Source: a virus
Virus record (IMG/VR): IMGVR_UViG_3300030385_001834
Coordinates: 1 to 27,634 of that record
Reading direction: 5' to 3' (one strand)
Length of the DNA stretch: 27,634 nt
Shown: positions 6,385 through 24,654 of the stretch, piece after piece
Numbering within the stretch: the first letter of the stretch is position 1
Layout: each line of letters opens with the position of its first letter
Made by a program: the position numbers and the translations under genes
Notes under the pieces: generated by a model
The model's database searches: none
What the model was told of the DNA's origin: nothing
Seen by the model: the letters and a program-made list of their open reading frames with translations, nothing else

Positions 6385-6773
6385 AGCTAACCGGCGGGCC
6401 GACTAAGATTCCGGATCTTCACTCGGTCGAGTTGGTTAGGGGAAAGGACAAGATCCTCGTCGGGCGAGCGGGCGTTCTGGGGTGGGGTGGCAATAGCGGC
6501 TTCCATGCGCTGAACCTCGCGGTGCAGTTCGGGGCGGATCGGATCGTCTTGGTCGGCTACGACATGCGGGTGGATCGTGGCACTCACTGGCACGGCCAGC
6601 ATCCGCAGGGCATGAACAATCCGAGCGAGAAGAACGTCGTCAGATGGCGCAACGCGGTCGACGATGCGGCGCCTATGCTCGCGGGTTTGGGCATCGAGGT
6701 GCTGAACGCTTCGCCCATTTCGGCTCTGACGGCGTATCCCAAGGTCAGCTTTGAGGATGTGTTCGCATGCTGA
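6138..6773 (+). CDS. Rossmann-like putative glycan enzyme, no canonical start
   Basis: The reading frame is open from 6138 and gives continuous protein-like sequence: FVQGWWRDWRGETVVIVASGPSA, a nucleotide-binding-like start, then LYACDEIWW, GWGGNSGFHALNLAVQFGA, LVGYDMR, and HWHGQHPQGMNNPSEKN near the end. This pattern recalls phage proteins of the DUF115/sialyltransferase-like kind, but the activity is not established. No ATG, GTG or TTG exists in frame until TTG 6432, which would remove the conserved N-terminal half. A Shine-Dalgarno-like GAGGGG at 6196-6201 precedes GTC GTC ATC at 6207. Possible explanations are a rare start codon, -1 frameshifting from the 5950 gene, a lost start, or a sequence error. 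It is followed by two more sugar or methyl transfer genes. Confidence 0.65.
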   Translation, partial: TEERGGRNRPFVQGWWRDWRGETVVIVASGPSAKDAPLECARGRARFICINEGWRLAPWSDVLYACDEIWWKRRGPVEFGGLKLTGGPTKIPDLHSVELVRGKDKILVGRAGVLGWGGNSGFHALNLAVQFGADRIVLVGYDMRVDRGTHWHGQHPQGMNNPSEKNVVRWRNAVDDAAPMLAGLGIEVLNASPISALTAYPKVSFEDVFAC

Positions 6774-7366
6774 CTGCCGCCTGCGTTCTGCGGTCCGGCG
6801 GCGAGTACAAATCTGAGCATGTTGAGCGACTAAGGCGCCAGATTGCAGAACACTTGCCGGGTGTTCCATTCCTCTGCCTGACCGACATGGCATTGCCGGC
6901 CGACATTACGGCATTGCCGCTCGCTCATCGCTGGCCGGGCTGGTGGTCGAAGATCGAGCTGTTCCGGCCCGATATCGATGGCGCCATCCTTTATCTCGAC
7001 CTCGACAGTTCGGCCGTCGGGGACTTGTCCGACATGACTGCGGTCAACCGGCTCGCGATTATGCGGGACGTGTACCGGCCGGACGGGTTGCAATCGTCCG
7101 TCATGTTCCTGCCGCAGTCTGAGCGCGGGCGGGTCTGGCGCGAGTGGATGCGCTGCCCGGAGAAGTGGATGCGGTTCTATCGGGTCGGGGGCGATCAAGC
7201 CTTTCTGGAGCGGCTCTGGCTCAAGTCGGCCGCGCGGTGGCAGGACATCCTGCCGGGTCAGGTGGTGTCGTTCAAAGCCGACAAGATCGCGGAACGAGGT
7301 GTTCCGGAGAATGCGCGGGTGGTGGCTTTCCACGGGAAGCCGCGCCCATGGGATGTGGGGTGGTGA
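6767..7366 (+). CDS. DxD glycosyltransferase (GT8-like)
   Basis: The 199-aa protein resembles small glycosyltransferases with a GT-A fold. It has a WPGWWSKIELF segment at residues 56-66, the metal/nucleotide-sugar motif YLDLDS with D78 and D80, GGDQAF near 142, and a C-terminal VVAFHGKPRPWDVGW of the kind that closes this family. The likely reaction is transfer of a sugar from a nucleotide-sugar donor. The acceptor is unknown; capsid, tail or host glycans are all possible. The ATG at 6767 lies 7 nt inside the preceding frame's end. The stop overlaps the methyltransferase start as TGATG, so the cassette is translationally coupled. Confidence 0.75.
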   Translation: MLTAACVLRSGGEYKSEHVERLRRQIAEHLPGVPFLCLTDMALPADITALPLAHRWPGWWSKIELFRPDIDGAILYLDLDSSAVGDLSDMTAVNRLAIMRDVYRPDGLQSSVMFLPQSERGRVWREWMRCPEKWMRFYRVGGDQAFLERLWLKSAARWQDILPGQVVSFKADKIAERGVPENARVVAFHGKPRPWDVGW

Positions 7367-7926
7367 TGCTGGCTTTCGAGCAGCGGGGATCTGCAATCCT
7401 GCGGCGCTTGCCGCCAACAGCGCGGATGGCAGAGGTCGGCGTACTCATTGGCGTTCTGTCCGAGTTCCTGCTGAGGCGTCACCGCAACCTGACGTTGCTC
7501 ATGATCGACAGTTGGGCACCTGCCGAGCGGCAGCCGGAGCGATACAAGGCGACGCTCGACATTCATGCCCATCACGAGATGGAGCGGGTGATGAAGCATC
7601 GAGCGCAAGCGGAGAACCGGGCGCGTCATTTCCCCGCCCGCGCGATCGTCATGCCCATGTCTTCCGCTGAAGCAGCGGCAATGGTCGAGGATGCTTCCCT
7701 GGATCTCGTTTTCCTGGACGCCGATCATTCGGCAGATGGGGTGCGCGAGGATCTGGCGGCATGGGTGCCGAAGGTGCGGCCCGGCGGGTGGATCGGCGGG
7801 CATGACTACCGCAACCCGGATCCGGCATTCCGCTTCGGCGTGACCGAAGCCGTGGATGAGTGGGCATCCGGCCGAGGTGCCAAGATTGATGCGGATGCCA
7901 ATACGACGTGGTTTTGCCGGCTATGA
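7366..7926 (+). CDS. Class I SAM-dependent methyltransferase
   Basis: The 186-aa product has the layout of Methyltransf_24-type enzymes: a SAM-binding AEVGVLIGVLSEFLL stretch at residues 22-36, an acidic residue after strand 2 (LLMIDSW, D48), and DLVFLDADHS at 113-122, followed by a VRPGGWIGGHDY strand-loop. It probably methylates a small molecule or sugar, since no nucleic-acid-specific motif is seen. I start it at ATG 7366, which overlaps the glycosyltransferase stop. Upstream in-frame extension lies within that gene and has no separate ribosome site. Its pairing with a glycosyltransferase suggests synthesis of a methylated glycan, which is inference. Confidence 0.8.
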   Translation: MLAFEQRGSAILRRLPPTARMAEVGVLIGVLSEFLLRRHRNLTLLMIDSWAPAERQPERYKATLDIHAHHEMERVMKHRAQAENRARHFPARAIVMPMSSAEAAAMVEDASLDLVFLDADHSADGVREDLAAWVPKVRPGGWIGGHDYRNPDPAFRFGVTEAVDEWASGRGAKIDADANTTWFCRL

Positions 7927-8516
7927 CCGCTCCCATCCTCACGCGCCTGACGACGCCGACGATTGACCCGGTCTCGCTCGCCGAGATGAAGACGCACCTG
8001 CGGGTCGACGGTGACGACGAAGACGCGGCAATCACTGACGCTATGGCGGATGCGGCCGCCTTCATCGAGACGCACTGCAACATCGCGCTTGCCCCGGCGA
8101 GTTGGGAGATCCTGTTCGACACGCCAGCATCGTTGCCGCTGACCTTGCCCATCTGGCCAGTTACGAGCGTGGACAGCGTCACCTACAGCAACGGCGACAG
8201 TCCGGATCCGGAAGTCGAGGCGAGCATCTATCGGCTGGTTAAGGGCCAGCCGGCGACCATGCACCTGGCCTATGACGCGACATGGCCATCCATGCGAACG
8301 GAAGCCGCCGCGCTGCGGGTGCTGGTGACTGCGGGATGGCCGGGGGATGGCGCAAGTCCTGAAGTCTGGACAGGCCCACTTCAGGCGCGGCGAGCGATCA
8401 AACTGGTCGTCGGACATTGGTACGCGAACCGCGAGACGGTGAACATCGGCAGTAGTGTGAGCGAGTTACCGTTCGCGGCGGGCGCTCTCCTCGCGCAGCT
8501 TCGGCTTTTCCTCTGA
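7923..8516 (+). CDS. Head-tail connector protein (phiE125 gp8/gp6-like)
   Basis: This 197-aa protein probably forms the ring under the portal (adaptor). The N-terminal helical signature (PVSLAEMKTHLRVDGDDEDA) followed by an acidic/aromatic helix (ADAAAFIETHCNIAL) is characteristic of the gp6/phiE125 gp8 connector families. The middle has conserved WPVTSVDSVTY, and the C terminus contains RAIKLVVGHWYANRE, matching the usual final helix. The start at ATG 7923 overlaps the methyltransferase stop. In comparable phages and GTAs this gene follows the capsid directly, so the three enzyme genes before it look inserted. Confidence 0.85.
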   Translation: MTAPILTRLTTPTIDPVSLAEMKTHLRVDGDDEDAAITDAMADAAAFIETHCNIALAPASWEILFDTPASLPLTLPIWPVTSVDSVTYSNGDSPDPEVEASIYRLVKGQPATMHLAYDATWPSMRTEAAALRVLVTAGWPGDGASPEVWTGPLQARRAIKLVVGHWYANRETVNIGSSVSELPFAAGALLAQLRLFL

Positions 8517-8534: not shown

Positions 8535-8810
8535 ATGGCAACTGAGCCGAGGCTTTTGTCGCCGCGGGGGTCGTCTGCGCCTGCTGTCGCGGTCCGCGCA
8601 GTGACGCCGCATGCATCGAACGATCTTCCGGGCGGTGTGTGCCGTTCGCTTTGGGTCAATGACGAGGGCGTGGTTACCGTTGCTGTAGTCGCTGAATCGG
8701 ATACGGATGCGGTGACAATGACTGTCAGCGGTCCGGGGCCTTTGCCCGTGCGAGCAAAGGCGGTCCGCATCTCGGGCACCAATGCGGCCAGCATAATCGC
8801 ACTCTACTGA
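8535..8810 (+). CDS. Spike base protein, RCAP_rcc01079-like
   Basis: The 91-aa protein matches the pattern of the gene-transfer-agent head-spike base family: a short N terminus leading to NDLPGGVCRSLWVNDEG, a middle of alternating beta strands, PLPVRAKAVRISGT, and a final AASIIALY. In Rhodobacter capsulatus GTA this family is a capsid vertex/head-spike component used in binding host capsule. The start is ATG 8535 with a GGAG site upstream. Its position next to two further structural genes, and between connector and head-closure genes, supports a role on the head rather than the tail. Confidence 0.8.
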   Translation: MATEPRLLSPRGSSAPAVAVRAVTPHASNDLPGGVCRSLWVNDEGVVTVAVVAESDTDAVTMTVSGPGPLPVRAKAVRISGTNAASIIALY

Positions 8811-8850
8811 CATCTTCCTAAACTTCCCCTTCCCATAGGAGGCGCGGCGA

Positions 8851-9276
8851 ATGGCTGCATTCAACAAGTTCCAGCAGTTCGTCGAAGACTTGGCGCACGG
8901 CGTACATGACCTGGGCAGCGACACGCTAAAGGTGATGCTGACGAACACCGCGCCTGTGGCGACGAACACGGTCAAAGCAAACCTGACCGAGATTAGCGCT
9001 GGCAACGGTTATACGGCGGGCGGCGCGACCCCCGCGCGCACTTCGTCTGGCCAGACGAGTGGAGTGTACCGCCTGATCTTGGAGGACGTGGTCTTCACGG
9101 CGAGCGGCGGCAGCATTGGCCCATATCGCTATGCGGTGCTTTATAACGACACGCCGACCTCTCCTGCGGACCCGCTTATCGGCTGGTACGACTACGGCTC
9201 GTCTCAGACTTCGGCCGCGGCGGAGACATTTACGGTCGATTTCGATCCGACCAACGGCCCGGTTTCGCTGGCCTAA
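8851..9276 (+). CDS. Phage structural protein of unknown role
   Basis: The 141-aa sequence belongs to a pattern seen in many phages: MAAFNKFQQFVEDLAHGVHDL, then TLKVMLTNTAPVATN, LTEISAGNGYTAGG, and GGSIGPYRYAVLYNDT followed by LIGWYDYGSS. The role is not established; it reads as a beta-rich virion component. A very good ribosome site (TAGGAGG) lies upstream of ATG 8851. It sits between the spike base and the large lyase-like protein, so it may be a linker or a decoration subunit of that module, which is inference from position only. Confidence 0.7.
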   Translation: MAAFNKFQQFVEDLAHGVHDLGSDTLKVMLTNTAPVATNTVKANLTEISAGNGYTAGGATPARTSSGQTSGVYRLILEDVVFTASGGSIGPYRYAVLYNDTPTSPADPLIGWYDYGSSQTSAAAETFTVDFDPTNGPVSLA

Positions 9277-9279
9277 CCG

Positions 9280-11787
9280 ATGCAGATCGGCACTGGGATC
9301 GGCCTAAGCGACATCGCTGTCCTGCGACTGGGGCCGCCGTCTGCCCCGCCAGATAGCGACGTACTTAGCGCAGGAACCGGTACGTTCGAAATGACCGGCT
9401 CTGCCGCGAGCCTGCGCAAGTCGCGGCGATTGCTCGCGGAAGGTCCCGTGTTCTCTGTGACCGGATCGGCAACGGCTTTGCGCCGTGGTCGCGTCCTGGC
9501 TGCGGGTGCGGGTTCGTTTGCAGTGACGGGCGGCGCGGCAACGCTAGGTAAGGGCAACAGCCTCGCGGCGGAGACTGGAAGCTTCGCCTTGACTGGCGAT
9601 GCTGCGGTTCTTCGTGCGACGCGAAGTCTGGTTTCCGAGTCTGGATCGTTCGTCCTCACGGGCGGGGAGGCGACGCTTACCTACGTGAGCGCGTCTCCGT
9701 ACGTGTTCGACTACTCGACCGCGGCGCTACCGGATGGGGCCACCTACACGCGGACGGGCGAGCGCGGGTACATCAACTCGACCCCGGAGATGGCGTTCGC
9801 TGCGGCTAATGCCCCGCGGTTCGATCACGACCCGGTTACTGGCGCTTACCGTGGCATCCTGTTTGAGCCGGCGAAGACCGAACTGCACGACAACCCGACC
9901 CTGGCGGGCTCGCCGCCGCCCGGCATGCAGATCCCGTCACCGTCCAACGGGCTCACGGCTACGGTTACGGGGAACCAGACGGTTGACGGGGTTCCGGGCT
10001 TCACGGTCCGCTACGTTGGCACCACGACCGGCACGTCGACGACGATCACCCTGCACGATGGCGCTTCTGTTCCGGCTACGGCCGCGACCGTCGGGACGAC
10101 CTTTATCGGTGGGTGTTACGTCAAGCTCGTTGCCGGCGCGACGACGAACATATCCTCGTTTAACTTCCGCATGGCGGAGCGCAAGGCCGATGGCGGCTAT
10201 GCGACCTCAAGCGGGAACACCTCGGTAAACTTCACGCCGACGACGGCGAGCGCCGCATCGCAGCGGGTCACGGCCACGCGGGAGTTGCAGGCGGCCGACG
10301 CGGTGCGCCCGCAGGCGCTGGTGCGGCTCAACTACAGCAGCGGCGTCGCAATCGACGTGACGCTCTTTATCGGCCTCTGCTCGGTAGTGGATGCCGCCAC
10401 GGCAACGGGACTGGGCTCGCCGGTACAGGCAACGGGCGGCTATGGCGCGGATCAGTTGGTCCACACCGTCCCGAATGGCGATTACGAGATCACCGTGACG
10501 ATGGAGGGCGGGTCTTACTCGGTCCTAGACACGGTATCGACCGGTTCTCACAACTTCTACCTGCCATCGGATGCCATCGTCGCGGGAGAAACGCGCTTTA
10601 CCGGCATCTCCTACGCGCAGCAGGCCGCGGGCTCGACGGACCTGACTGCGCCCTGGGACTTCGATGCGGTCCTCGCGCAGGGGGTTCTGGTCGACGGCGA
10701 CGAGGGAACGAACCTGCGGGGCACTCCGCCGGTCTACACGACGAACCCGGTCACGCTGGCGGACAAAGACCTTTGGGACACGCGGGCTTACGACATCTTC
10801 GACGATGCCGACGACTACATGCTCCAGGGTTCTGGCGCCACGGTGCTCGCTGACAACATTCGCCGCTACATCCTGAACCTCGCCGAAAACGATTACATGC
10901 GGCTCAACGCCTCGACGAACCTGTCGGGCGGCGATGGCCAGACGAAGAACTTCGTGTCGGAGCGCAACTGGGCGGTGATCCTGGTCGCGTGGTCGTACAT
11001 GAAGTGCCGCGGCATTTTCTCGGCCGGAGAGCAGGCGGCCATCGAGGCATGGTTCGGCGCGCTGGGCGACGATATCGCCTGGTACTACAAATTCGAGACA
11101 GACACGCTCGGGTCGAAGCTCAACAATCATTTCGGCTGGGGCAACCAAGCCCTGATGATGTCGGCGGTTATCTCCAACCGGCGCGACCTATTCGAGCGTG
11201 CTCTGGCATCGCAGCGGCGCATCATGTACGGCACCGTCGCGGACTTCGTGAAGGATACGTCCGGGCCGGTTCCGATGCTGGGCTACAATCCCAACTCCGG
11301 GACGCATCCTTTGCCGCCGGGCATCCTGTCGGTTGACCTTGACCGCTACTCGTCTCCGACGGTTCACAACGGCATTTACTACAACTGGTGGCACAATAGC
11401 AGCCGGTGCATCACAGGCCTGTTCGCCCGCGCGAACGGCGTCAACCTGCTGACCGAAAGCACCTACGACGGCGACACGGCCGGCGCGACGTTCGACGACA
11501 TCCTGACTGGTTACAAAGAGGTCTGCGACGACGCTGGCGCCGAGGTCATCGCGTTCCTGAACGCCTATGACGCCAACGTGATCGCGGCAGGCGACACGGT
11601 AACAACCTCGGATCTCAACGTCGCGGCGCACAAGGTGAAGCCGGACATGAGCGGCTTCCGCCTTCTGACGGCCATCGAGCCATTCGCTTCGGGCTCTTAT
11701 GCGGCGACCATCGACGCGAACCTGACGGGCAAAACGGATCGCCTGATGGGCGGCAGCATCGACTACCTGCGCGCGAGGCTGGTGTGA
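9280..11787 (+). CDS. Putative head spike with alginate-lyase-like domain
   Basis: The 835-aa protein is probably a virion depolymerase. Residues 29-135 are five 22-residue repeats. About 140-470 is a beta-rich region with carbohydrate-binding character. From about residue 500 there is an alpha-helical domain resembling PL5-type alginate lyases, with the key Asn-Asn-His at N615-N616-H617 (LNNHFGWGNQALMM) and a second region at residues 689-703 (R689, H696, N697, Y700, W703). The Tyr usual in that second region of PL5 enzymes is not obvious; His696 or a nearby Tyr may replace it. Start ATG 9280 follows the previous stop by 3 nt without a strong ribosome site, suggesting reinitiation. It follows the spike-base gene and precedes neck genes. 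Confidence 0.7.
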   Translation: MQIGTGIGLSDIAVLRLGPPSAPPDSDVLSAGTGTFEMTGSAASLRKSRRLLAEGPVFSVTGSATALRRGRVLAAGAGSFAVTGGAATLGKGNSLAAETGSFALTGDAAVLRATRSLVSESGSFVLTGGEATLTYVSASPYVFDYSTAALPDGATYTRTGERGYINSTPEMAFAAANAPRFDHDPVTGAYRGILFEPAKTELHDNPTLAGSPPPGMQIPSPSNGLTATVTGNQTVDGVPGFTVRYVGTTTGTSTTITLHDGASVPATAATVGTTFIGGCYVKLVAGATTNISSFNFRMAERKADGGYATSSGNTSVNFTPTTASAASQRVTATRELQAADAVRPQALVRLNYSSGVAIDVTLFIGLCSVVDAATATGLGSPVQATGGYGADQLVHTVPNGDYEITVTMEGGSYSVLDTVSTGSHNFYLPSDAIVAGETRFTGISYAQQAAGSTDLTAPWDFDAVLAQGVLVDGDEGTNLRGTPPVYTTNPVTLADKDLWDTRAYDIFDDADDYMLQGSGATVLADNIRRYILNLAENDYMRLNASTNLSGGDGQTKNFVSERNWAVILVAWSYMKCRGIFSAGEQAAIEAWFGALGDDIAWYYKFETDTLGSKLNNHFGWGNQALMMSAVISNRRDLFERALASQRRIMYGTVADFVKDTSGPVPMLGYNPNSGTHPLPPGILSVDLDRYSSPTVHNGIYYNWWHNSSRCITGLFARANGVNLLTESTYDGDTAGATFDDILTGYKEVCDDAGAEVIAFLNAYDANVIAAGDTVTTSDLNVAAHKVKPDMSGFRLLTAIEPFASGSYAATIDANLTGKTDRLMGGSIDYLRARLV
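9364..9684 (+). repeat. Five tandem 66-nt (22-aa) repeats
   Basis: In the large spike protein, conserved Phe residues recur exactly every 22 residues (36, 58, 80, 102, 124). Each unit has the form of a small-residue turn, then G-x-F-x-x-T-G, then small residue, A-x-L-R/G. DNA copies have diverged, so selection is on the protein. The regular beta-turn pattern fits a stacked stalk or attachment segment before the enzymatic part. Confidence 0.85.
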
Positions 11788-12113
11788 TGACCGTCTCTGC
11801 CGGGCAGCTCGACCAGCGTGTGGCAATCCAGACAGAGGCCCGCGTATCCGACGGCGTCGGCGGCTACGAGGTTACCTGGAGCACGACGGCGACTGTCTGG
11901 GCAATGGTGAAGCCGGTCCGGGGGCGCGAGCAGATGGAAGCGCAGCAGCTCCAGGCTTCGGCGATGTATCGGATCACGATCCGCAACCGGGCGGTGAGCG
12001 CGGCGCAGCGGATCGTCTGGCGCGGCCTGACGCTCAACATCCGAGAGGCGCCTGATCCGGGTGGCCGGGCGATGTACCGCGAGATTCTGGCGGAAGAGGG
12101 CGTCGCCGTCTGA
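11787..12113 (+). CDS. Head closure / head-tail joining protein
   Basis: The 108-aa protein fits the SPP1 gp16-like head-tail joining family (PF05521 type). It opens with AGQLDQRVAIQTEARVSDG, followed by GGYEVTWSTTATVWAMVKPVRGRE and a strand-rich C terminus containing IVWRGLTLNIREAPDPGG. These proteins close the neck below the connector ring. I chose ATG 11787, which overlaps the preceding stop as TGATG; a GTG at 11784 adds one residue. It is followed by the gp10-like gene with another TGATG overlap, the standard neck gene order. Confidence 0.88.
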   Translation: MTVSAGQLDQRVAIQTEARVSDGVGGYEVTWSTTATVWAMVKPVRGREQMEAQQLQASAMYRITIRNRAVSAAQRIVWRGLTLNIREAPDPGGRAMYREILAEEGVAV

Positions 12114-13831: not shown

Positions 13832-13971
13832 GATGGTCCCCGTCTGACTTCTGGTCGTCCAGCCCGCACGAACTGTTTGCGGCGCTGGAGATTTGGCGCG
13901 AGTCTAAGGGCGACACGGAGCAGGCGAGCAAAAGCGAATGGTCAGAATGGGCGGAGCAGCTTGGGCGGTGA
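13783..13971 (+). CDS. Tail assembly chaperone 2 (rcc01693-like)
   Basis: The 62-aa product carries the compact pattern of the Phage_TAC_6/rcc01693-like family: FRRLLGAACGILRWSPSDFWSSSPHELFAAL, where the SP-x-x-FW-x-x-x-P-x-EL motif is diagnostic. If translated alone it begins at GTG 13783. The frame stays open upstream to at least 13741, so a -1 frameshift product fused to chaperone 1 is also possible. The C terminus is acidic and Ser/Trp-rich. Its stop overlaps an in-frame ATG of the following nuclease. Confidence 0.75.
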   Translation: MGYPFRRLLGAACGILRWSPSDFWSSSPHELFAALEIWRESKGDTEQASKSEWSEWAEQLGR

Positions 13972-14309
13972 TGCTCGTCACTGTGCAGGCGGTCGCGGCG
14001 GACCTGCCAAAGGCCGTGTCCGTCCACGATGGCGATACGTTCCGGGCTTCATTCCGCATCGAGAACGTCGATACCGCCGAGATCGACGGCAAGTGCGCCT
14101 ATGAGCGGGACATGGCGCAGCGGGCCAAGCGGTTCGCATCGGAGTGGATCGCGCAGAACGCCGGACGGATCACCATCGTGACGAGCAAGGTCGACCGCTA
14201 CGGCAGGCCGGTGGCGCTCGTCTCTGCTGGCGGTGAGGACTTGGGCGAGGCGCTGATTGCTGCGGGGCTCGCCCGGCGGTGGACGGGGCGCCGCGAGCCT
14301 TGGTGCTGA
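13938..14309 (+). CDS. Exported thermonuclease-like (SNase) protein
   Basis: The 123-aa protein looks like a staphylococcal-nuclease-fold enzyme that cleaves DNA or RNA with Ca2+. It has DGDTF (D31, D33), a strand ending FRIENVDTAE with R40 and E48, CAYERDMAQRAKRFA (E56), and DRYGRPVA with R90, covering the expected active-site residues. The first ~20 residues (MVRMGG, hydrophobic core, AVAA) look like a cleavable signal peptide. This depends on using ATG 13938, which overlaps the chaperone by 34 nt; the alternative ATG 13971 overlaps the chaperone stop but would spoil the export signal. It is not a standard tail gene, so it is probably an accessory insertion. Confidence 0.75.
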   Translation: MVRMGGAAWAVMLVTVQAVAADLPKAVSVHDGDTFRASFRIENVDTAEIDGKCAYERDMAQRAKRFASEWIAQNAGRITIVTSKVDRYGRPVALVSAGGEDLGEALIAAGLARRWTGRREPWC

Positions 14310-14627
14310 TCAGCGGACCGGGACGATGCGGCCAGTGCTGTTGCCTTCGGTGTAAACCTTGAACTGCACGTTCGGGTAGATTTGGGTTTGGTCGTCTTGA
14401 GGTCCGCAGTGGGCCAGTATGTACGGCCCGGCGGTATCGACTTCTGTGAAGCCAAGATTCACCGCCGGGCAATGGTGACCCTTCATTCTCACCGCGGAGG
14501 TGAGGATATCGGCCTGCTGTTGATTGATGTCGCCGAAGTCCGGCTTTTCTTCGGGGGGGTCCGTGTAAACCAGCCATACCGCAAGCGCCGATATCGCGAG
14601 CAACCCAGCGAACTTCTGTGCCTGCAA
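14310..14627 (-). CDS. Small membrane-anchored protein, reverse strand
   Basis: The 105-aa ORF lies on the opposite strand to the tail operon and ends directly against the nuclease stop. A single hydrophobic segment (AGLLAISALAVWLVY, residues 7-21) anchors a soluble C-terminal domain with two Cys (GHHCPAV and LAHCGPQ), reminiscent of small alphaproteobacterial envelope proteins of unknown function. The start is TTG 14627, preceded by GGAGG at ideal spacing. An in-frame extension upstream to 14843 lacks a ribosome site and runs into the HNH gene. It looks like a moron, perhaps acting on the host envelope or in superinfection exclusion; this is inference. Confidence 0.65.
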   Translation of the reverse strand: MQAQKFAGLLAISALAVWLVYTDPPEEKPDFGDINQQQADILTSAVRMKGHHCPAVNLGFTEVDTAGPYILAHCGPQDDQTQIYPNVQFKVYTEGNSTGRIVPVR

Positions 14628-14667
14628 GGCATCCTCCAAACAGAGGCCGAAATCTGATACAGTAAGC

Positions 14668-14701
14668 GGGTTGCGGGAGTGGTGAGACACCCCTGCAACC
14701 C
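14668..14701. promoter_or_regulatory. Stem-loop between divergent genes
   Basis: The 105-nt gap between the reverse-strand membrane protein and the HNH gene holds a 34-nt inverted repeat. GGGTTGC pairs with GCAACCC, continued by a G-T pair, two G-C pairs, one mismatch and three more pairs around a 6-nt loop. No U-tract follows on either strand, so it looks more like an operator or RNA structure than a terminator. It lies about 30 nt before the HNH start. Confidence 0.5.
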
Positions 14702-14732
14702 TAACCACGACGACCCGTGAAGGGGGCCGTTT

Positions 14733-15521
14733 ATGGCTGACGAGACCATAGCACCACTTCGGTGCTGCACGAAATGCGGCGCGCGCAAACCCGCTGACAC
14801 CGATCACTTCCGACGAGAGCCCCGCACGAAGATTGGCTTTCAAGCCATCTGCCTGGAATGCGAGCGTGCGCGAAACCGGGCGCGACGCGCGGCTGACCCG
14901 GATGTCGACCGCCGCTACTACCTGTCTCTCTCTCCTGAGCGCAAGGATGTCTATAAGGCTGCCGCTAGGAATCGGCGGCGGGACGATCCAGGCCGGGTCA
15001 GAGAAGTGGCGGCGGCGTGGCGTGAGCGGAATCGCGAGAAGGCCCGCGAATATCAGCGGCGATGGGCCGGGAAGAATCGCGAACAGGAGCGCGAGAGATT
15101 AAGGCGATACTTCAAGGAAAATCGCGACAAGATCCGCAAACGTCTCAACGAACACAATCGAGAGAAGCGTAAGACGCCGCACGGCGGGCTGTCGGCAAGG
15201 GTCGGCAACCTGATGCGGCACAATCTCAGGGCAGTTAGCACCGGCCGTCCGACCAACGGTAAGCGCGGCAGGTCATGGCGCGAATTCGTAGACTACTCGG
15301 TTGAGGAATTGGCAGCGCACCTAGAACGCCAGTTCGCACGCGGGATGTCATGGCAGAATTTCGGCGAGTGGCACATCGACCATATCGTCCCCGTCGCATC
15401 GTTCAATTTCGAAAGTCCTCAATGTCCGGAGTTCCGGGCGTGCTGGAGCCTGACCAATCTGCGCCCAGTCTGGGCCGCTGAGAACTTCCGGAAGAACGCA
15501 AAGCGGATCTATCTGCTTTAG
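14733..15521 (+). CDS. HNH endonuclease with N-terminal zinc motif
   Basis: The 262-aa protein is probably a free-standing homing endonuclease. Residues 11-43 hold paired cysteines (CCTKC and CLEC) forming a zinc-binding element. About 45-150 is an Arg/Glu-rich helical DNA-binding region. The nuclease centre is EWHIDHIVPVASF with H214, D216 and H217, followed by TNLRPVWAAENFRKN with N242, N251 and N255. It starts at ATG 14733 after GAAGGGGG. It interrupts the normally adjacent chaperone and tape-measure genes, as expected for a mobile intergenic endonuclease. It is not needed for tail assembly. Confidence 0.88.
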   Translation: MADETIAPLRCCTKCGARKPADTDHFRREPRTKIGFQAICLECERARNRARRAADPDVDRRYYLSLSPERKDVYKAAARNRRRDDPGRVREVAAAWRERNREKAREYQRRWAGKNREQERERLRRYFKENRDKIRKRLNEHNREKRKTPHGGLSARVGNLMRHNLRAVSTGRPTNGKRGRSWREFVDYSVEELAAHLERQFARGMSWQNFGEWHIDHIVPVASFNFESPQCPEFRACWSLTNLRPVWAAENFRKNAKRIYLL

Positions 15522-17725: not shown

Positions 17726-17880
17726 CCGACGAAACCATCCGCGCGCTTCTGGCCCGCATCGAGACGCTGGAGAAGACGGTCGAGCATCTTCGGCAGGAGG
17801 TGCGGGCGGATCGTCCCCGCGTCATTCACGACGCCGTCTGCGCCTCGCGCACTGCCTGGCGTGAATACCCGATCCGATGA
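17722..17880 (+). CDS. 52-aa coiled-coil ORF after tape measure
   Basis: This short gene is fixed by overlaps at both ends: its ATG overlaps the tape-measure stop (ATGA) and its stop overlaps the next gene's ATG (ATGA). Residues ~5-30 (ALLARIETLEKTVEHLRQEVRAD) form a strong heptad-like helix. The C terminus, EYPIR followed by the stop, repeats the last residues of the tape measure protein, and the underlying 18 nt differ at only two positions. Function unknown. It may be a tail-tip helper sharing a docking tail with the tape measure, or the trace of a short duplication. Confidence 0.7.
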   Translation: MTDETIRALLARIETLEKTVEHLRQEVRADRPRVIHDAVCASRTAWREYPIR

Positions 17881-18635
17881 GCATCAACGTCTACGCCATG
17901 CCTCCGGTGCCTATCACGGGCTCGGAGTGGACGGAGATTGCGCCGGTCCAGAGCAGCCGGTCCTACTACGGCAAGGACTACACGTCCGCTTTCGGCCGCA
18001 CGCGGCGCCATGTGTCGCTCCAGATCGCGGCGCTTGGGCGCGGCGGGAACATGGGCGCCGGCTACGTCGAGATGCTGAAGCGCTTCCTGGCGGGCATCCA
18101 TGCGGTCCGGCTGAACAGCCTGCCCATCAACTGGCACCTCGATGCAATCCGGGACCGGGCGCGGCTGGAAAGCCTGCCGCTGGTGTGGACATCAGGCGGC
18201 GAGGAGCTGACTTGGACCATGCCGCCGGAAGCGCTGATCTGGTACAGCGGCGTCCCGCTTACGGGGGTCATCGGCACGTCGGGCGGGTGGAACATCGTCA
18301 CCGTGTCGGGGCTGCCGCCCAACTCTCTGGTGGCCCGTCCGGGCGACTTCGTCAAGGTGCAGGAGGATGCGGCCGACACGACGGGCTCGACGGCTCAGGT
18401 CGTGGCGCCCGCCTATTCGAATGCGTCCGGCGTCGCGGTTATTCGCCTGTTCTCGGCGCTGGCGTACGGCGGGATTATCACCCTCAACGCGAGCGACACC
18501 GGGGTGTTCAAGCCGGTGGGGGACTATCCCCGGAGCATGCAGCCGGTGGGTGCCAACTGGTACTACGACTGGTCGTTCCGTGAGGTCTTCGCGGATGATG
18601 TCGGCGGCTTCGTGGAGGTCGACCCTTGGTCCTGA
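17877..18635 (+). CDS. Distal tail-like protein
   Basis: The 252-aa product follows the tape measure, where distal tail or baseplate-hub proteins are encoded. It has no motif I can name with certainty. Visible segments are SEWTEIAPVQSSRSYYGKDY, RRHVSLQIAALGRGGNMGAGYVEMLKRFL, and AVRLNSLPINWHL, then a beta-rich region with a C-terminal NWYYDWSFREVF that could mirror a Dit-type fold. The start at ATG 17877 is coupled to the upstream 52-aa ORF, and the end overlaps the next gene by 10 nt. Role inferred mainly from order. Confidence 0.65.
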   Translation: MSINVYAMPPVPITGSEWTEIAPVQSSRSYYGKDYTSAFGRTRRHVSLQIAALGRGGNMGAGYVEMLKRFLAGIHAVRLNSLPINWHLDAIRDRARLESLPLVWTSGGEELTWTMPPEALIWYSGVPLTGVIGTSGGWNIVTVSGLPPNSLVARPGDFVKVQEDAADTTGSTAQVVAPAYSNASGVAVIRLFSALAYGGIITLNASDTGVFKPVGDYPRSMQPVGANWYYDWSFREVFADDVGGFVEVDPWS

Positions 18636-19459
18636 CCCGAAGCGTAGACACGGATCTGCTAGAGGCCCTTTCCGGGGCCTTTTTTTATCCGGTCATCCTC
18701 GTCTACCTGGACTGGCCGGAGAACGAGATCCGGCTGCACTCCGGCGTCGGTACGATCGAGTGGGGCGGCGAGGACTGGCTGGGCGTCGGCGCGTTCGGTG
18801 AGGTGCGCTTGCCGGAGGAGGCGATTGGCCTTGGTTCGCAGCCCGCGACGCTGAGCCTTGTCGGCCTGCCGGACGATCTCGACGAGCAGTTGGAAGCGCC
18901 GATCCGCAATCGGGCGGGCACGATCTACTTCGGCGCCACGACGGAGCGCGCCGGCAACGTGCTCATCGGGGAGCCGTTCTCGATCTACGACGGCTACATG
19001 GATGCCCTCACGGACAAGGTCGAGGGCTCTGACGGTAAGCTGGCCCGCCGCATCATTCTCAGCCTCGCCAGCGGCCCGTCGCAGCGATCCTATGCCGAGG
19101 TATACCACACCTACGAGGATCAGGCGCGGGCGTATCCGGGGCCGCAGCCGGTGGAGGATGTCGCCTTCGGTGACAGCCCCGATCCTACCGTCATCGACCT
19201 CGCGAACGGCGACTGGGACATCCTCGTGGAGAGCGAGGGCGGGTCCGAATGGCTGGACGTGACAACCACGGGCGGCGCCGGCTGGACCATCCCTGACGAT
19301 GGCGGCGACCCGTACGTTCGGATCCGGGTCTACGCAGACGGGCTGCTGACGACAGGGCAGAAGGCGATCCTGCTGGCCGGCGACACCATCGCCGATACCG
19401 CGGGGCGCCTGACCATCAATGCCGAGGCCGAGGGGCAAAAGCTGCGATGGCCGGAATAG
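18626..19459 (+). CDS. Tail hub/baseplate-like protein
   Basis: This 277-aa protein is a phage tail component of uncertain exact role. The N-terminal half reads PVILVYLDWPENEIRLHSGVG, GGEDWLGVGAFGEV, and PATLSLVGLPDDLDEQL, a beta-barrel-like pattern found in baseplate or hub proteins coded between tape measure and central hub genes. The middle has DGYMDALTDKVEGSDGKL. It starts at TTG 18626, with GGAGG about 9 nt upstream, and overlaps the previous stop by 10 nt. Codons 13-20 contain a hairpin plus T-run that resembles an intrinsic terminator. Confidence 0.65.
   Translation: MVLTRSVDTDLLEALSGAFFYPVILVYLDWPENEIRLHSGVGTIEWGGEDWLGVGAFGEVRLPEEAIGLGSQPATLSLVGLPDDLDEQLEAPIRNRAGTIYFGATTERAGNVLIGEPFSIYDGYMDALTDKVEGSDGKLARRIILSLASGPSQRSYAEVYHTYEDQARAYPGPQPVEDVAFGDSPDPTVIDLANGDWDILVESEGGSEWLDVTTTGGAGWTIPDDGGDPYVRIRVYADGLLTTGQKAILLAGDTIADTAGRLTINAEAEGQKLRWPE
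18663..18686 (+). terminator. Intrinsic-terminator-like hairpin inside a tail gene
   Basis: AGGCCC pairs perfectly with GGGCCT across a 6-nt loop and is followed at once by seven T residues. This is the textbook shape of a Rho-independent terminator, yet it lies 37 nt inside an open tail gene, where it encodes EALSGAFFYP. It could trim transcription of the downstream hub and fibre genes when ribosomes are not close behind polymerase. Translation of the region would normally melt it. Confidence 0.5.
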
Positions 19460-19833
19460 TCCTCGCCCGCGCGATCGATGTCATGGATCGCCCGTGGGAG
19501 TGGGGCAAGGCCGACTGCTGCACGGCGGCCTGCGACGTGTTCCGCGCCCTGCACGGCATCGACCCGATGGCATCCCTCCGTGGCCGTTACATGACGCGCA
19601 GAGAGGCGCACCGGATCATCCGGGACATGGGGGGCTTCGTGGCTATGGCGGAGACCCTGGCGGCATCTGCTGGGCTCTCTGCGGGGCATGGGGAGCCGGG
19701 GGAGATCGGCGTGGCGGAGCACGACGGCGGGCTTGCGCTGGTGATCGCCGTCGGCCCCGGCGCGTGGGCGGGCAAGACGCTTACCGGCATGACGACGGTT
19801 CCCGAGGCGTTGGAGTTCTGGCGTGCTCCGTAG
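19447..19833 (+). CDS. DUF6950-like (NlpC/P60-position) tail protein
   Basis: The 128-aa protein has PWEWGKADCCTAACDVFRALHGIDP, with Cys24 after the WGKAD motif, then LRGRYMTRREAHRII and an EPGEIGVAEHD loop with His92. A Cys in a WG-x-x-DC setting and a later His are compatible with an NlpC/P60-like fold. The gene sits where lambda K and GTA cell-wall peptidases are coded, just before the tail hub. A peptidoglycan hydrolase role at the tail tip is plausible but not shown. The ATG at 19447 overlaps the preceding gene by 13 nt; its end overlaps the next start by 11 nt. Confidence 0.7.
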   Translation: MAGIVLARAIDVMDRPWEWGKADCCTAACDVFRALHGIDPMASLRGRYMTRREAHRIIRDMGGFVAMAETLAASAGLSAGHGEPGEIGVAEHDGGLALVIAVGPGAWAGKTLTGMTTVPEALEFWRAP

Positions 19834-22036
19834 GCTTCTCGCGACCACTGCCCTGACGGCATGCCTGTGGGCGACGCCGGCCGCGGCGGACCCGATCACG
19901 ATCACGGCCCTGGCGATCAACGCAACTGCGTTCGCGACACTGAGCGCCAATGCGGTTCTGGCCGTCGGCATCGCGGTATCCATCGCGTCTGCCGTAGCCT
20001 CGTCGGTCCTGAACAAGCCGGACAAGCCGAAGGTACCGAATCTAAAGCGCGACCTCGCCATCCCGAGTAGCCGACCGCCGTACCGCTACGTCTACGGGCA
20101 CACGCGCACCTACGGCTCCCCGGCTCCGTGGCGGGTGAAGGGCCGCAACCTCTACGGCTGCCTGATCCTCAACAGCCGGCCGAGCGATGGCGGCAACCTG
20201 AAACTGTTCCTCGACAAGCGCGAGGCGACCCTTACCGGGGACATCTTCGACTTCACCGGACCGGGCGCGCTGGCTACGGCGGTCGATCCCGACCAGACTT
20301 GGGACAATAATCACGCATTCTTCTGGCTTGGGCTCGGCGACCAGACCGGACCGCCCGACGAGTTCCTGGCCGACATGCCGGACGACTTCAAGGCAACCGA
20401 TCGGTGGGAAGGCCGGACGGTCCTTTGGTGCCGCTTCAACATTGGGGACAAAGAGGACCGGCAGGAACGTTGGCCGAACGTCCCGCCGAACGTCGAGATC
20501 GAAATGGACTGGTCCTTCGTCTGGGACCCGCGCGACGAAGCGCAAGATGCCGACGACGAGTCCACATGGACCTACAGCGCGACCCAGGCGCTATGCGCGC
20601 TCGACGCTCTCCGCCGTAATCCGATCCGCCGCTACGCCCTATCGCAGTTGCACGTCTCCAGCTTTGAGGAGGGGGCGGACGTAGCAGACGAGGCTATGGC
20701 GCGGAAGTACGCGGAGACGACCGAGCCGCGGTACGAGGCCAATGGGGTGCTGGTCTGGAACGGTAACGAACTGCTGGACCAGATCACGCCGATTGCCGAG
20801 GCCGGGGCCGGGCAGTTGGTCCGCATCGGGAGTGCCATCGGCTACGCGGCCGGCGCTTGGCGCGAGCCGATTTACACGATGGACGACCTGCTGGAGGAGG
20901 GGGGCGTCGAGCTTACCCGCCTACGTCCGGGGCGTGAACTGCCGCGGGCAATCCGTGTCCAGTACATCGCGCCGGATCGTGATTGGCAGGAGGCCGAACT
21001 GCCGCTGCGAACGGTCGATGGCGCGGAGACGCTGGTCGGCGACGACGGCATCCGGGAGATCAAGCTGAACTTCTGCACGTCGCCGACGCAGGCGCAGCGT
21101 GTCCAGAAGATCGAGGCTCTGCGGGCGGCATCACAACGGCGGCTGAAATGCACGTTGCCGCCGAGCGCGATCAAGCTGGTGGCAGGCGCAAACGAGACGG
21201 GTGACTTCGCCGCCGGATTCGAACGCCTCAACCATGTCTGGCAGGTCGAGGCGATCAACCCCGGTCTCTGGACATCGGACAGTTTCCCGGACGGTGGCGT
21301 CGCCATGCGTTGCCCGGTCTCCCTCCGCGAGGAGAAGGAGTCGCATTACGCCTGGGACGCGGAAGCCGACGAGATCGAGATTATAACCGAGGAGTTCGAC
21401 GCGACGCAGGCGGGGCTTGCCGCGCCGGGCGCGATCAGCGTCACGACGGGCTCTGCCGCCGCGCTCAACGGCGAGCCGCGTATCAAGCTGGCGTTCGACC
21501 CGGCCGACGGCGACGTGGACGACTATGAGTGGCAGTACGCGGTCGATGACGAGCCCTGGATACCGGGCGGTACGCTGACCGGCGATGAGTTGGACGGGGA
21601 CAGCAAGGTCTATGCGTTCATCTCGCCGGTACAAGTCGGGGCGTCCTACGACATCCGCGTGCGCTCCCGCAGCGGCATCGCCGGGTACCGGACATCGGAT
21701 TGGGTGACGGCGAGCGACATCATCGCGACGGCGCCGGATGTGGACCTTGACCCGCCATACAACGGCAGCGCGGTCGCCGGCCCATCGGAAATCACGGTCA
21801 CGTTCACGTCCCCGAACAGCCAATACTTCGAAGGCGTCGAGTTCTGGGGCAGCGACACGAACGACGAACTCGACGCCACGCTCCTAGAAACGATCTACGG
21901 CTCGCAAAACCTAGTCTTTGAGTACACGGAAACCGGTCTCGGCACTCCGGTGACCCGCTATTACTTCGTCCGCTCCAAGGGACGTTTCAACGCCACCTCT
22001 GATTTCGCTGCCGTCGTCAGCGCCACCACCTCCTAA
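19823..22036 (+). CDS. Tail hub / tip attachment protein (gpJ-like)
   Basis: The 737-aa protein is the likely central tail hub or host-specificity protein, by size and order. It includes PYRYVYGHTRTYGSPAPWRVKGRNLYGCLILN near residue 85, a long strand-rich hub region, and a fibronectin-like C-terminal part (about 545-640 and 650-737) with repeated strand patterns. The N terminus (MLRRLLATTALTACLWATPAAADP) has the charge, hydrophobic core and small-residue end of a signal peptide, followed by another hydrophobic segment to about residue 63. Hydrophobic N termini are known in gpJ-like proteins. The start is GTG 19823, overlapping the previous gene by 11 nt; a later start cannot be excluded. Confidence 0.8.
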   Translation: MLRRLLATTALTACLWATPAAADPITITALAINATAFATLSANAVLAVGIAVSIASAVASSVLNKPDKPKVPNLKRDLAIPSSRPPYRYVYGHTRTYGSPAPWRVKGRNLYGCLILNSRPSDGGNLKLFLDKREATLTGDIFDFTGPGALATAVDPDQTWDNNHAFFWLGLGDQTGPPDEFLADMPDDFKATDRWEGRTVLWCRFNIGDKEDRQERWPNVPPNVEIEMDWSFVWDPRDEAQDADDESTWTYSATQALCALDALRRNPIRRYALSQLHVSSFEEGADVADEAMARKYAETTEPRYEANGVLVWNGNELLDQITPIAEAGAGQLVRIGSAIGYAAGAWREPIYTMDDLLEEGGVELTRLRPGRELPRAIRVQYIAPDRDWQEAELPLRTVDGAETLVGDDGIREIKLNFCTSPTQAQRVQKIEALRAASQRRLKCTLPPSAIKLVAGANETGDFAAGFERLNHVWQVEAINPGLWTSDSFPDGGVAMRCPVSLREEKESHYAWDAEADEIEIITEEFDATQAGLAAPGAISVTTGSAAALNGEPRIKLAFDPADGDVDDYEWQYAVDDEPWIPGGTLTGDELDGDSKVYAFISPVQVGASYDIRVRSRSGIAGYRTSDWVTASDIIATAPDVDLDPPYNGSAVAGPSEITVTFTSPNSQYFEGVEFWGSDTNDELDATLLETIYGSQNLVFEYTETGLGTPVTRYYFVRSKGRFNATSDFAAVVSATTS

Positions 22037-22050
22037 AGGGGCAAAGCTTC

Positions 22051-24654
22051 ATGGTTGCACCGACCTTCACGCTGCCGGTAACGGCGGCGGGCTCCGGCTA
22101 TGTGACGACGCGGGAGGATCTGGAAAGCGGCGTCCAGACGGTCGTCAACGCGCTCAACGACAAGATCGAGCCTCTCGAAAACCTCGCCGAGGGCGGCAAC
22201 GTCACGACTGCGACTTGGACGGAACTCGCGGCAATCACGGGCGTCCGCGCCAACCAGCGTGCCGACGTGCTCACTGATGCGGGGACGCACACGGACCCGG
22301 TCGTCGGCGGCGTGGTGGACAACGAGGGCATTTACGCCTGGAGCCTGTCGCCGGCCGGGTGGGAGCGGATCGGCGAACTGTCGGACGAGGCAGCCGCGGC
22401 GGAGGTGATTGCGGCGCGGGATGGGGAGGCGTCGCTTTCGGCAAAACTGGCGGCGGATGCGGCGGTCGCGGCTGCGGCAACGGCTGCCGTAAACGACCGG
22501 CTGTCTGTCCTCGTTTATCCGCAGATCATCGGCTACGAGGGCGCCCTTGCGGCGAGCGACGGCGGGCTTAGCGCGTCCACTGTCATCTACGCCGAGGTGA
22601 CCTCCGACGAAGGCGTCATTACCTCGATCGACTATTTCGGCACGGCCGTGGGCACTCTGAAGATCCGCCGCGGCCGGATCGTTGCGGGGGCGTGGACGAG
22701 CCTCGATTCCTTCACCTTCACGACGGCAACCGGCGAGCAGACTGAGACCGTCGGGGACTTCTACTTCGATGCCGGCGACGTGCTAGCGATCTATGGCGAC
22801 GGGCTGATCGAGCGCGATCTTGGGGTAACCGGATCGGCCGGCTACTACGTCATCAGCGGTGACGCGGCCAGCGGATCCGTGGGCACGCTCTTCACGAATG
22901 CCCACATCGCACTGCGTTTCAACCTGACCGTCGGGCCTATCTCCACGAACAAGCTGCGCGACCTCGCCGTGGTCGCGGACGATCTTCCTTCGATTGCGCG
23001 CCGCGATCTGGCCGTCAAGAGCGTGAGCAGCCAGACGGTTTACGGGCTCGACATCGGCGGCTCACCGACGGACCTGGGGGAAAATCTCGGCACGGGCTCA
23101 ACTGTGTGGGATCTCCGCCCGCTCGATGCCGGCGAGGTGACGCAGATCGAGGTCTACAATCGGGGGGCAAGTCCGGTCGTCGGTGCGGTCGTGCTCGGCA
23201 CGTTCTCCGATGCCCGCACGATCAGCATCTACGAGACCATTGGCTACACCTTCGCCGTCGGCCTCAATACCCTCATTCCCGGCGCGACGGGCGTACCGGA
23301 CAAGCTCTATACGAAGGAGGGGACCTATATCGGGCTGAAGGCCGATAGCGCGGGGCTGGCATACGACCTGACCGGCGACCTTCGCAGCGGCCAGTTCTAC
23401 GGCACCACGACGGGCACGACCGGCGATCTGGTGATGACCGGTCAGACCAGCGACCTGTTGCTGGCCATGGATATCGGCATCAGCCGTGTTCGCAAGCGCG
23501 GGTCGCCAATCGAAAAGGTCAAGCCGCTCTACTTCTGCGAGCAGGATTTCGCTGAGGCTGGTATCTCGCCGTTTCTGGTCACGACCGGCACGTGGACTTT
23601 CGGCGGTGATGGTTGGGCAGTGTCCGGCGGCACGGCCGGCATAGCGACACGTCTGTCGCATCGGCGGGCCATCGCCGTTCAGCATGGATTTTGCCGGGCG
23701 GATTTCCAGTTCACCGAGGCCGACCAAGTCGCGCTGTTCGGGCTCGAAACATCGCTCGCTGACATTCGCACCCTTTGCGGCATAGACATCGCGGGCAACA
23801 ACTTCATCGCGTATGCGCAGGCGGCATCGGCTGGCGCACTGTCGGCGGTGGCAACGCAGGCGCTTGCCTTCACGTTGGTTCAGGACAGGACCTATCGGAT
23901 TCAACTGGACAGCCAGGGCCGCAACCTGACTTTCACCCTGACGGATCTCACGACCGGGCAAGCGCACACCTATTCTCAGGCGGATGGCGATGTGGCGAAT
24001 CCGTCCTATCCCATCGGTCGCGGCGCCGGGCGCGTCACGATGGCGAGGCTCGGCACGGCGGGGCTCAAATTCGGGAACGTCCGGCACGGCACGCTGCAGC
24101 GCAATCCGAAGGTCGTCATCTACGGGGACAGCATCACGACCGGCTACGGCGCACCGTGGGAAGATAGCTGGCCGGGGCTGCTGACCGAAGCCCTCAGCGG
24201 CGCGGTGGCGATCAACGCGGTGGGTGGCTTTACGTCGACCAAAGGCCTCCAGCTGCTGGAGATGTCGCTCCACTATTACGACAATGCCCAGTACCTCATC
24301 ACCGCGCTCGGTACGAACGACACGGCCGCGACGGCCACGCTCGCGACGAACCTAGCGTTGTTCCACACCATCGCCACGCGCCGCGGGCTCATCCCGATCA
24401 TTGCCTGCCCCCCGCTGCGGGGTGACAGCAATACGGTGGTGCAGGATACGATCGTCCCGGCGCTGCTGGCGACCGGCTACCGTACGATCAGGTTCGACCT
24501 CGCGACGAGCGTGGGGGCGGACGGCACGACGTGGGACAGCAGCAAGTTCCTGGGGTCATCGGTCAGCCCGACCGACAACGTGCATCCGAACGCGACCGGC
24601 CACCTCGCGATGTACAACCGGATCCGCATGGATGTGCCGGAGATTTTCGAGTGA
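22051..24654 (+). CDS. Tail fibre with C-terminal SGNH/GDSL hydrolase
   Basis: The 867-aa protein is probably the receptor-binding fibre. Residues 1-150 look like an attachment and coiled-coil segment (Ala/Asp-rich helix near 120-150). The middle is beta-rich, with Thr/Gly repeats. From about 685 to the end there is a complete SGNH hydrolase: block I VIYGDSITTGYG with Ser694, block III ALGTND with Asn756, and block V TDNVHPN with Asp842 and His845. Such domains remove acyl, often acetyl, groups from polysaccharides, so it may deacetylate surface glycan during adsorption. ATG 22051 follows AAAGGGGC. It is the last gene of the tail operon and ends 9 nt before a convergent gene. Confidence 0.88.
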   Translation: MVAPTFTLPVTAAGSGYVTTREDLESGVQTVVNALNDKIEPLENLAEGGNVTTATWTELAAITGVRANQRADVLTDAGTHTDPVVGGVVDNEGIYAWSLSPAGWERIGELSDEAAAAEVIAARDGEASLSAKLAADAAVAAAATAAVNDRLSVLVYPQIIGYEGALAASDGGLSASTVIYAEVTSDEGVITSIDYFGTAVGTLKIRRGRIVAGAWTSLDSFTFTTATGEQTETVGDFYFDAGDVLAIYGDGLIERDLGVTGSAGYYVISGDAASGSVGTLFTNAHIALRFNLTVGPISTNKLRDLAVVADDLPSIARRDLAVKSVSSQTVYGLDIGGSPTDLGENLGTGSTVWDLRPLDAGEVTQIEVYNRGASPVVGAVVLGTFSDARTISIYETIGYTFAVGLNTLIPGATGVPDKLYTKEGTYIGLKADSAGLAYDLTGDLRSGQFYGTTTGTTGDLVMTGQTSDLLLAMDIGISRVRKRGSPIEKVKPLYFCEQDFAEAGISPFLVTTGTWTFGGDGWAVSGGTAGIATRLSHRRAIAVQHGFCRADFQFTEADQVALFGLETSLADIRTLCGIDIAGNNFIAYAQAASAGALSAVATQALAFTLVQDRTYRIQLDSQGRNLTFTLTDLTTGQAHTYSQADGDVANPSYPIGRGAGRVTMARLGTAGLKFGNVRHGTLQRNPKVVIYGDSITTGYGAPWEDSWPGLLTEALSGAVAINAVGGFTSTKGLQLLEMSLHYYDNAQYLITALGTNDTAATATLATNLALFHTIATRRGLIPIIACPPLRGDSNTVVQDTIVPALLATGYRTIRFDLATSVGADGTTWDSSKFLGSSVSPTDNVHPNATGHLAMYNRIRMDVPEIFE

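Follow-up and report, generated by a model that had tools for sequence, protein, structure and literature searches.

Three adjacent genes of a viral record from IMG/VR (IMGVR_UViG_3300030385_001834) may encode a capsid-vertex spike whose fiber is armed with a polysaccharide lyase; the chances that this reading of the trio is right were judged to be evenly balanced. The analyzed window is the whole 27.6-kb record. The genes, all on the + strand, encode a homologue of capsid-vertex spike bases (91 amino acids (aa), positions 8535..8810), a protein of the phrog_644 family that is a probable fiber adaptor or attachment domain (141 aa, 8851..9276), and an 835-aa fiber-like protein with a predicted C-terminal Alginate_lyase domain of the PL5 type (9280..11787). 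The reading starts from the base homology, the lyase homology with its catalytic residues, and the gene order. An earlier reading of the sequence alone (the sequence-only reading) had placed these open reading frames (ORFs) between connector and head-closure genes, and this was confirmed, coordinates included. Upstream lies the gene of a gp6-like head-tail connector/adaptor, Ad1 (7908..8516, +; PF05135, 5.4e-12; phrog_442 head-tail adaptor, 1.5e-27; phrog_40, 3.6e-21). Downstream lies that of the head-closure/head-completion protein Hc1 (11784..12113, +; PF05521, 3.2e-25; phrog_25, 4.7e-25); the GTG start codon of this gene and the stop codon of the 835-aa gene overlap (11784-11787).

The first protein of the trio had been taken for a spike-base homologue, and database searches bear this out. 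As a single sequence (phmmer), the 91-aa protein matches the PDB entry 8cjz, 'Spike Base Protein' (2.5e-4). The matched stretch of 8cjz is from Cobetia phage Carin1 (100% match), in whose record gp40 is labeled 'head spike base protein; structurally identified and validated'. A profile of the 91-aa protein and two database relatives recovered the protein Rcc01079 (6tb9) of RcGTA, the Rhodobacter gene transfer agent (GTA), at 2.6e-12, and 8cjz at 8e-11; with 32 relatives in the profile, the value for Rcc01079 was 7.5e-18. The structures of both of these spike bases were solved by cryo-EM. A match with phrog_12296 (7e-10) was also obtained. The scan of viral contigs yielded 34 relatives in addition to a locus designated L129, which is the closest one (L numbers denote the loci compared). 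The size of the protein and its location among head genes fit the spike base family (about 80-95 aa), and the same was observed for the relatives.

In most loci examined, genes of the base family adjoin head genes. The gene order in L129 is portal, base, a protein of 231 aa, and head protease. A portal gene was likewise found near the base in L023, L037, L048, and L032, a major head protein gene in L024, L036, L045, L043, L028, and L041, a head-tail adaptor gene in L021, and a terminase gene in L022 and L047. This distribution bears on the explanation in which the spike-base homologue is mounted not on the capsid but on the distal tail, all three proteins together forming a tail-tip spike. Two observations speak for a tail location and against a capsid one: in L033 (5707-6660) and L034 (7278-8231) a DUF2460 distal tail protein (DUF2460 match in L033, 9.6e-73) carries a spike-base domain fused at its C-terminus, and in phage P8625 the base gene adjoins and follows tail genes. 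Because of these cases, the spike-base family is not restricted to heads. Downstream of the fusion gene come another spike-base gene and then a baseplate hub gene; in these two loci, the mount of the head spike appears to have been transferred to the tail. Nevertheless, in the great majority of the examined loci, L129 included, the family has a portal, capsid, adaptor, or terminase gene as its neighbor, and the base gene of the window is inside the neck block; a tail-tip trio is considered very improbable. As a separate observation, L037 (5631-13521) contains two spike-base genes, each followed by a gene for a very large protein (1251 and 1188 aa) whose sequence begins with MFGVGP, with the portal gene adjacent; this pair is a possible duplicated large head spike.

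The third protein had been described as a combination of repeats and an alginate-lyase-like domain, and both parts were recovered. PF05426 (Alginate_lyase) matches aa 523-649 at 1.6e-11 (44.7 bits vs. a cut-off of 22.2), and the lyase domain, which occupies about aa 500-835 (10777..11784, +), matches AlgL in the PDB (4ozv) at 4e-5. According to hhalign, the similarity to two PL5 enzymes has a probability of 95.5 (E 1.4e-8). The homology is firm across aa 523-727. Residues N616, H617, R689, and Y700 or Y701 align with N201, H202, R249, and Y256 of AlgL, the catalytic residues of this enzyme. The C-terminal domain is assigned to PL5-type lyases from its sequence, by this homology and by the catalytic residues.

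Counting against the enzymatic part of the reading, the lid lysine of PL5 (AlgL K66) has no clean alignment in the 835-aa protein, this region being poorly aligned, and AlphaFold run on the lyase fragment with no homologues gave a predicted local distance difference test (pLDDT) score of 35, so that the model was left out of the fold search and the (alpha/alpha) toroid of PL5 enzymes is only a predicted fold here. The head spike may be real and its C-terminal domain catalytically dead, lectin-like, and limited to binding acidic polysaccharide, like the RcGTA head fiber. The resemblance of RcGTA and other base-linked fibers to binding proteins (Laminin_G_3 in L016 and P8625; PMC10218006) is consistent with this, as are the divergence of the lyase match (about 27-34% identity) and the lack of a confident alignment in the N-terminal lid region. 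Equivalents of the NNH, Arg, and Tyr of the AlgL catalytic set are all kept, which argues for an active enzyme, and a dead domain is regarded as improbable.

Several other matches to carbohydrate-active enzymes were considered and set aside. The 'lyase' of Pseudomonas phage Y5 (L131, OQ572407) is probably host DNA, because an AlgL-type gene stands beside an AlgX-like gene in a record flagged UNVERIFIED; it served only as an AlgL sequence. The matches to arabinofuranosidase in L018 and to polysaccharide deacetylase in L044 are weak, may reflect shared folds, and were not taken as evidence of other enzyme spikes. The L044 gene (20-2381) lies right after a spike base, and its product has a signal-like N-terminus and a deacetylase match of 28.4 bits (cut-off 23.1), resembling the turret of HFTV1 in this respect.

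The N-terminus of the 835-aa protein provides a possible link to the base. In RcGTA, residues 2-10 of the head fiber, IALGLGLGL, bind the base pentamer, with the aliphatic residues occupying pockets in the five subunits of the base (PMC7296036). Gly/aliphatic starts are frequent in proteins encoded right after base genes, for example, gp39 of Carin-1 (MLGLGLGIAR), P8625 (MIGLGLDLSL), ZHS (MIGLGLNIW), and L024 (MRLGLGIGV); the N-termini of further base followers contain SIGIGIGLAL (L018), VGIGIGVG (L047), and MLGIGLGLT (L015). The pattern G[ILV]G[ILV] is present within the first 18 aa of 8 of the 36 direct base followers and of 7 of the 1234 remaining ORFs in these loci (Fisher P 1e-9, an optimistic value because the pattern was picked after some sequences had been seen). 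The 835-aa protein begins with MQIGTGIGLSDIAV and satisfies this pattern, with M1, I3, T5, I7, and L9 at alternate positions. The candidate anchor peptide, MQIGTGIGLSDIAVLRL, comprises aa 1-17 (9280..9330, +).

Between the anchor and the lyase domain, the protein contains five repeats of exactly 22 residues each, with motif starts at aa 34, 56, 78, 100, and 122 (9364..9693, +; consensus about GSFxLTGxAAxLxxxRxLxAx), and a middle domain at aa 148-366 (9721..10377, +) similar to phrog_5939 (1.1e-6). The 22-aa repeat type also occurs in the phrog_644-linked proteins of L064 and L095. The middle domain, which is probably carbohydrate-binding, also occurs in base-linked fibers of L016, L041, L024, L026, and L022. 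Composition is even along the whole 835-aa gene. No close relatives of the protein or of its lyase domain were found in viral contigs; the only genome match, in L130, was rejected as a chance match within an oxidoreductase. Taken together, the base homology, the head-gene context, the N-terminal peptide, and the middle domain common to several base-linked fibers make a mounting on the head plausible.

The second protein of the trio had been expected to be a small beta-rich structural protein. Its beta-rich fold was confirmed by the AlphaFold model (pLDDT 93.2), and it belongs to phrog_644 (2e-21), a family represented in 91 phage records and at least 571 confirmed viral contigs. Matches of the model in BFVD include a structural protein of Agrobacterium phage 7-7-1 (5e-7). 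Genes of phrog_644 are often accompanied by genes of 22-aa repeat proteins, and in three podovirus-like contigs (L061, L064, and L066) the base and phrog_644 genes adjoin as they do in the window. The protein gp75 of EBPR siphovirus 2, encoded beside a phrog_644 protein with 70% identity, was rejected as a spike base, as it appears by eye to be a coiled coil. In Caulobacter phage phiCbK (L005, 11986-20876), a phrog_644 gene is located directly 5' of an 8.4-kb 'lectin-like' gene near head genes; this gene is a candidate for encoding a large fiber or filament. In the podophage ctCJ8213 (L010, 6986-10584), a phrog_644 gene is followed by genes of two proteins and then of a repeat protein with a PF05426 domain (1.3e-18), which is an independent link of phrog_644 with this enzyme family. 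The ctCJ8213 alginate lyase was not alignable with the lyase of the 835-aa protein in BLASTP, and each matches PF05426 independently.

The properties of phrog_644 and of the 835-aa protein also include the main points that weigh against a head mounting. The model of the 141-aa protein matches a tail-tip chain of Bxb1, 9d93_Ra (Foldseek probability 0.99, E 0.036, template modeling scores 0.46/0.59), and its BFVD matches include tail-collar fiber proteins. Of 80 phrog_644 contigs, 5 contained a spike base, and none of 22 base contigs contained phrog_644, many of the contigs being fragments; moreover, the repeat-protein companions of phrog_644 are usually without a spike base. The anchor motif of the 835-aa protein is degenerate, with Thr at one position, and fails the stricter alternation of three aliphatic residues; a similar N-terminus is present in a repeat protein of L057, a contig without a spike base. 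The 835-aa gene does not follow the base gene directly but comes second, with the phrog_644 gene intervening, and the middle domain occurs in non-base proteins as well, including gp49 of Azospirillum phage Cd.

These observations suggest a different division of the trio, in which the 91-aa protein serves as a capsid spike base and the 141-aa and 835-aa proteins form a separate adsorption unit mounted on the tail or neck, that is, an ordinary tail-spike depolymerase encoded in the head block. In several inspected records phrog_644 lies beside tail or fiber genes, a spike base very rarely accompanies the family, the 22-aa repeat proteins are part of phrog_644 cassettes, and in ctCJ8213 the phrog_644 gene stands three genes before the alginate-lyase/repeat protein. 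Such a unit would, however, leave the base without an adjacent fiber and the 835-aa protein with an anchor-type N-terminus; moreover, both genes lie directly behind the base within the connector/closure block, and the window encodes a separate tail fiber with its own esterase-like domain at 22051-24654. A tail or neck unit is possible but rather doubtful. Two modules that are mostly found separately meet in this window, and the 835-aa protein bears features of both; mainly because of this, confidence in the head mounting is only moderate.

If the trio forms a lyase-armed spike on the capsid, we infer the following arrangement and role. The 91-aa protein would be a pentameric jelly-roll base that, like its RcGTA counterpart, sits on pentamers of the major capsid protein, and the N-terminus of the 835-aa protein (M1, I3, T5, I7, and L9) would enter the hydrophobic pockets of the base. 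The 22-residue repeats would form a stalk, the middle domain would bind sugar, and the PL5-type domain would cut an acidic exopolysaccharide (alginate or a related uronate polymer) via beta-elimination. The 141-aa protein would probably act as an adaptor or collar on the fiber. In this way, the virion could bind and cut the matrix ahead of tail-tip engagement. The 867-aa tail fiber encoded at 22051-24654 contains a GDSL/SGNH lipase/acylhydrolase domain at its C-terminal end (PF13472, 2.4e-9). This domain may act as a polysaccharide esterase at the tip of the tail, which would suit a phage attacking an acetylated polymer. A two-step attack by an active lyase on the capsid vertices, held in a GTA-type base, together with an SGNH-type esterase at the tail tip, is proposed tentatively, as a combination falling just short of an even chance.

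The gene order of the window is of the siphophage type. The small and then the large terminase gene come first, followed by those of the portal, the protease, the major head protein, and the connector; next are the trio and head closure. Neck/tail completion precedes the tail terminator and the tail tube, after which come the tape measure, the distal tail, further tail proteins, a J-like central fiber, the 867-aa fiber, and lysis genes. In agreement with the sequence-only reading, the trio is encoded apart from the tail-tip fibers (19823-22036 and 22051-24654). Its description as part of a GTA-like module was overstated, as only the spike base in the head-neck set points to a GTA; Pfam analysis of 17877-22036 found none of the GTA tail domains DUF2460, DUF2163, NlpC/P60, and TIM barrel, and found Phage-tail_3. 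The terminase is closest to that of the related Caulobacter phage Kronos, at 57% identity. The connector gene of Kronos directly adjoins the next neck gene, with no genes between, and the trio is therefore a distinct insert relative to Kronos. In addition, the region from the major head protein to the connector (6767-7926) contains glycosyltransferase (phrog_1962) and methyltransferase (PF13578) ORFs, possible virion glycosylation cargo; in L061, the spike base and phrog_644 are likewise preceded by a methyltransferase and by a weak match to a glycosyltransferase. Two endonuclease-like ORFs (phrog_452 and phrog_1035, endonuclease VII) are located at 13938-15521 between the tail tube and tape measure genes.

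Depolymerases of phages are generally known as tail spikes. A capsid-mounted polysaccharide lyase was not found in the open-access literature, subscription papers being mostly outside the search. If the proposed arrangement is true, the phage cuts bacterial slime from the capsid rather than only from the tail; head ornaments would be exchangeable for enzymes, and virions could bind and clear slime whatever their orientation, ahead of tail engagement. The spike base with the GxGx peptide would then be a portable device for attaching proteins to capsids, and the head fibers of GTA, the Carin-1 spike, and the HFTV1 turret would be variants of one theme. The N-terminal peptide pattern offers a simple search handle for head fibers in uncultured phages.

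One of the closest known counterparts is the RcGTA head spike, composed of the Rcc01079 base pentamer and the Rcc01080 fiber (6tb9/6tba), which shares with the window trio a homologous base and a fiber-like neighbor with a Gly/aliphatic N-terminus, degenerate in the window. RcGTA head fibers are known to bind capsule, as the sequence-only reading had noted (PMC7296036, PMC10218006), and surface polysaccharide is the presumed target of both systems. The RcGTA fiber is 325 aa long, is only a binding protein as far as is known, and is encoded away from the structural cluster, whereas the window has an 835-aa candidate fiber with a lyase domain, a phrog_644 gene between the base and this candidate, and all three genes in the head-neck block. 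In Carin1, a homologous base, gp40 (8cjz), is likewise encoded in the head block and is followed by gp39 with the GxGx start MLGLGLGIAR; unlike in the window, the neighborhood is podovirus-like (connector, tail nozzle), and gp39 has no recognized enzyme domain. That the fiber became an enzyme, as had been suggested, is a possibility for which the capsid turrets of HFTV1 are an earlier parallel. These are also two-part capsid ornaments whose outer part has a carbohydrate-active-enzyme fold (gp30 base and gp31 head with a polysaccharide-deacetylase-like domain), although HFTV1 is an archaeal virus, and its turrets stand on hexamers, consist of a hexameric base and a trimeric head, and carry another enzyme class (PMC12494034). 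The PL5 alginate lyases (AlgL, 4ozv; A1-III, 1qaz; PF05426) share with the 835-aa protein the homologous catalytic core with aligned N-H-R-Y residues. They are, however, stand-alone bacterial enzymes, while the lyase of the window would be the C-terminal part of a virion-type protein and has insertions before the catalytic Tyr. Finally, the known depolymerase of RcGTA, the detachable tailspike TspA, also places a polysaccharide depolymerase on a GTA particle; in contrast to the proposed head spike, it is a trimeric beta-helix on the baseplate and does not belong to PL5 (PMC13420450).

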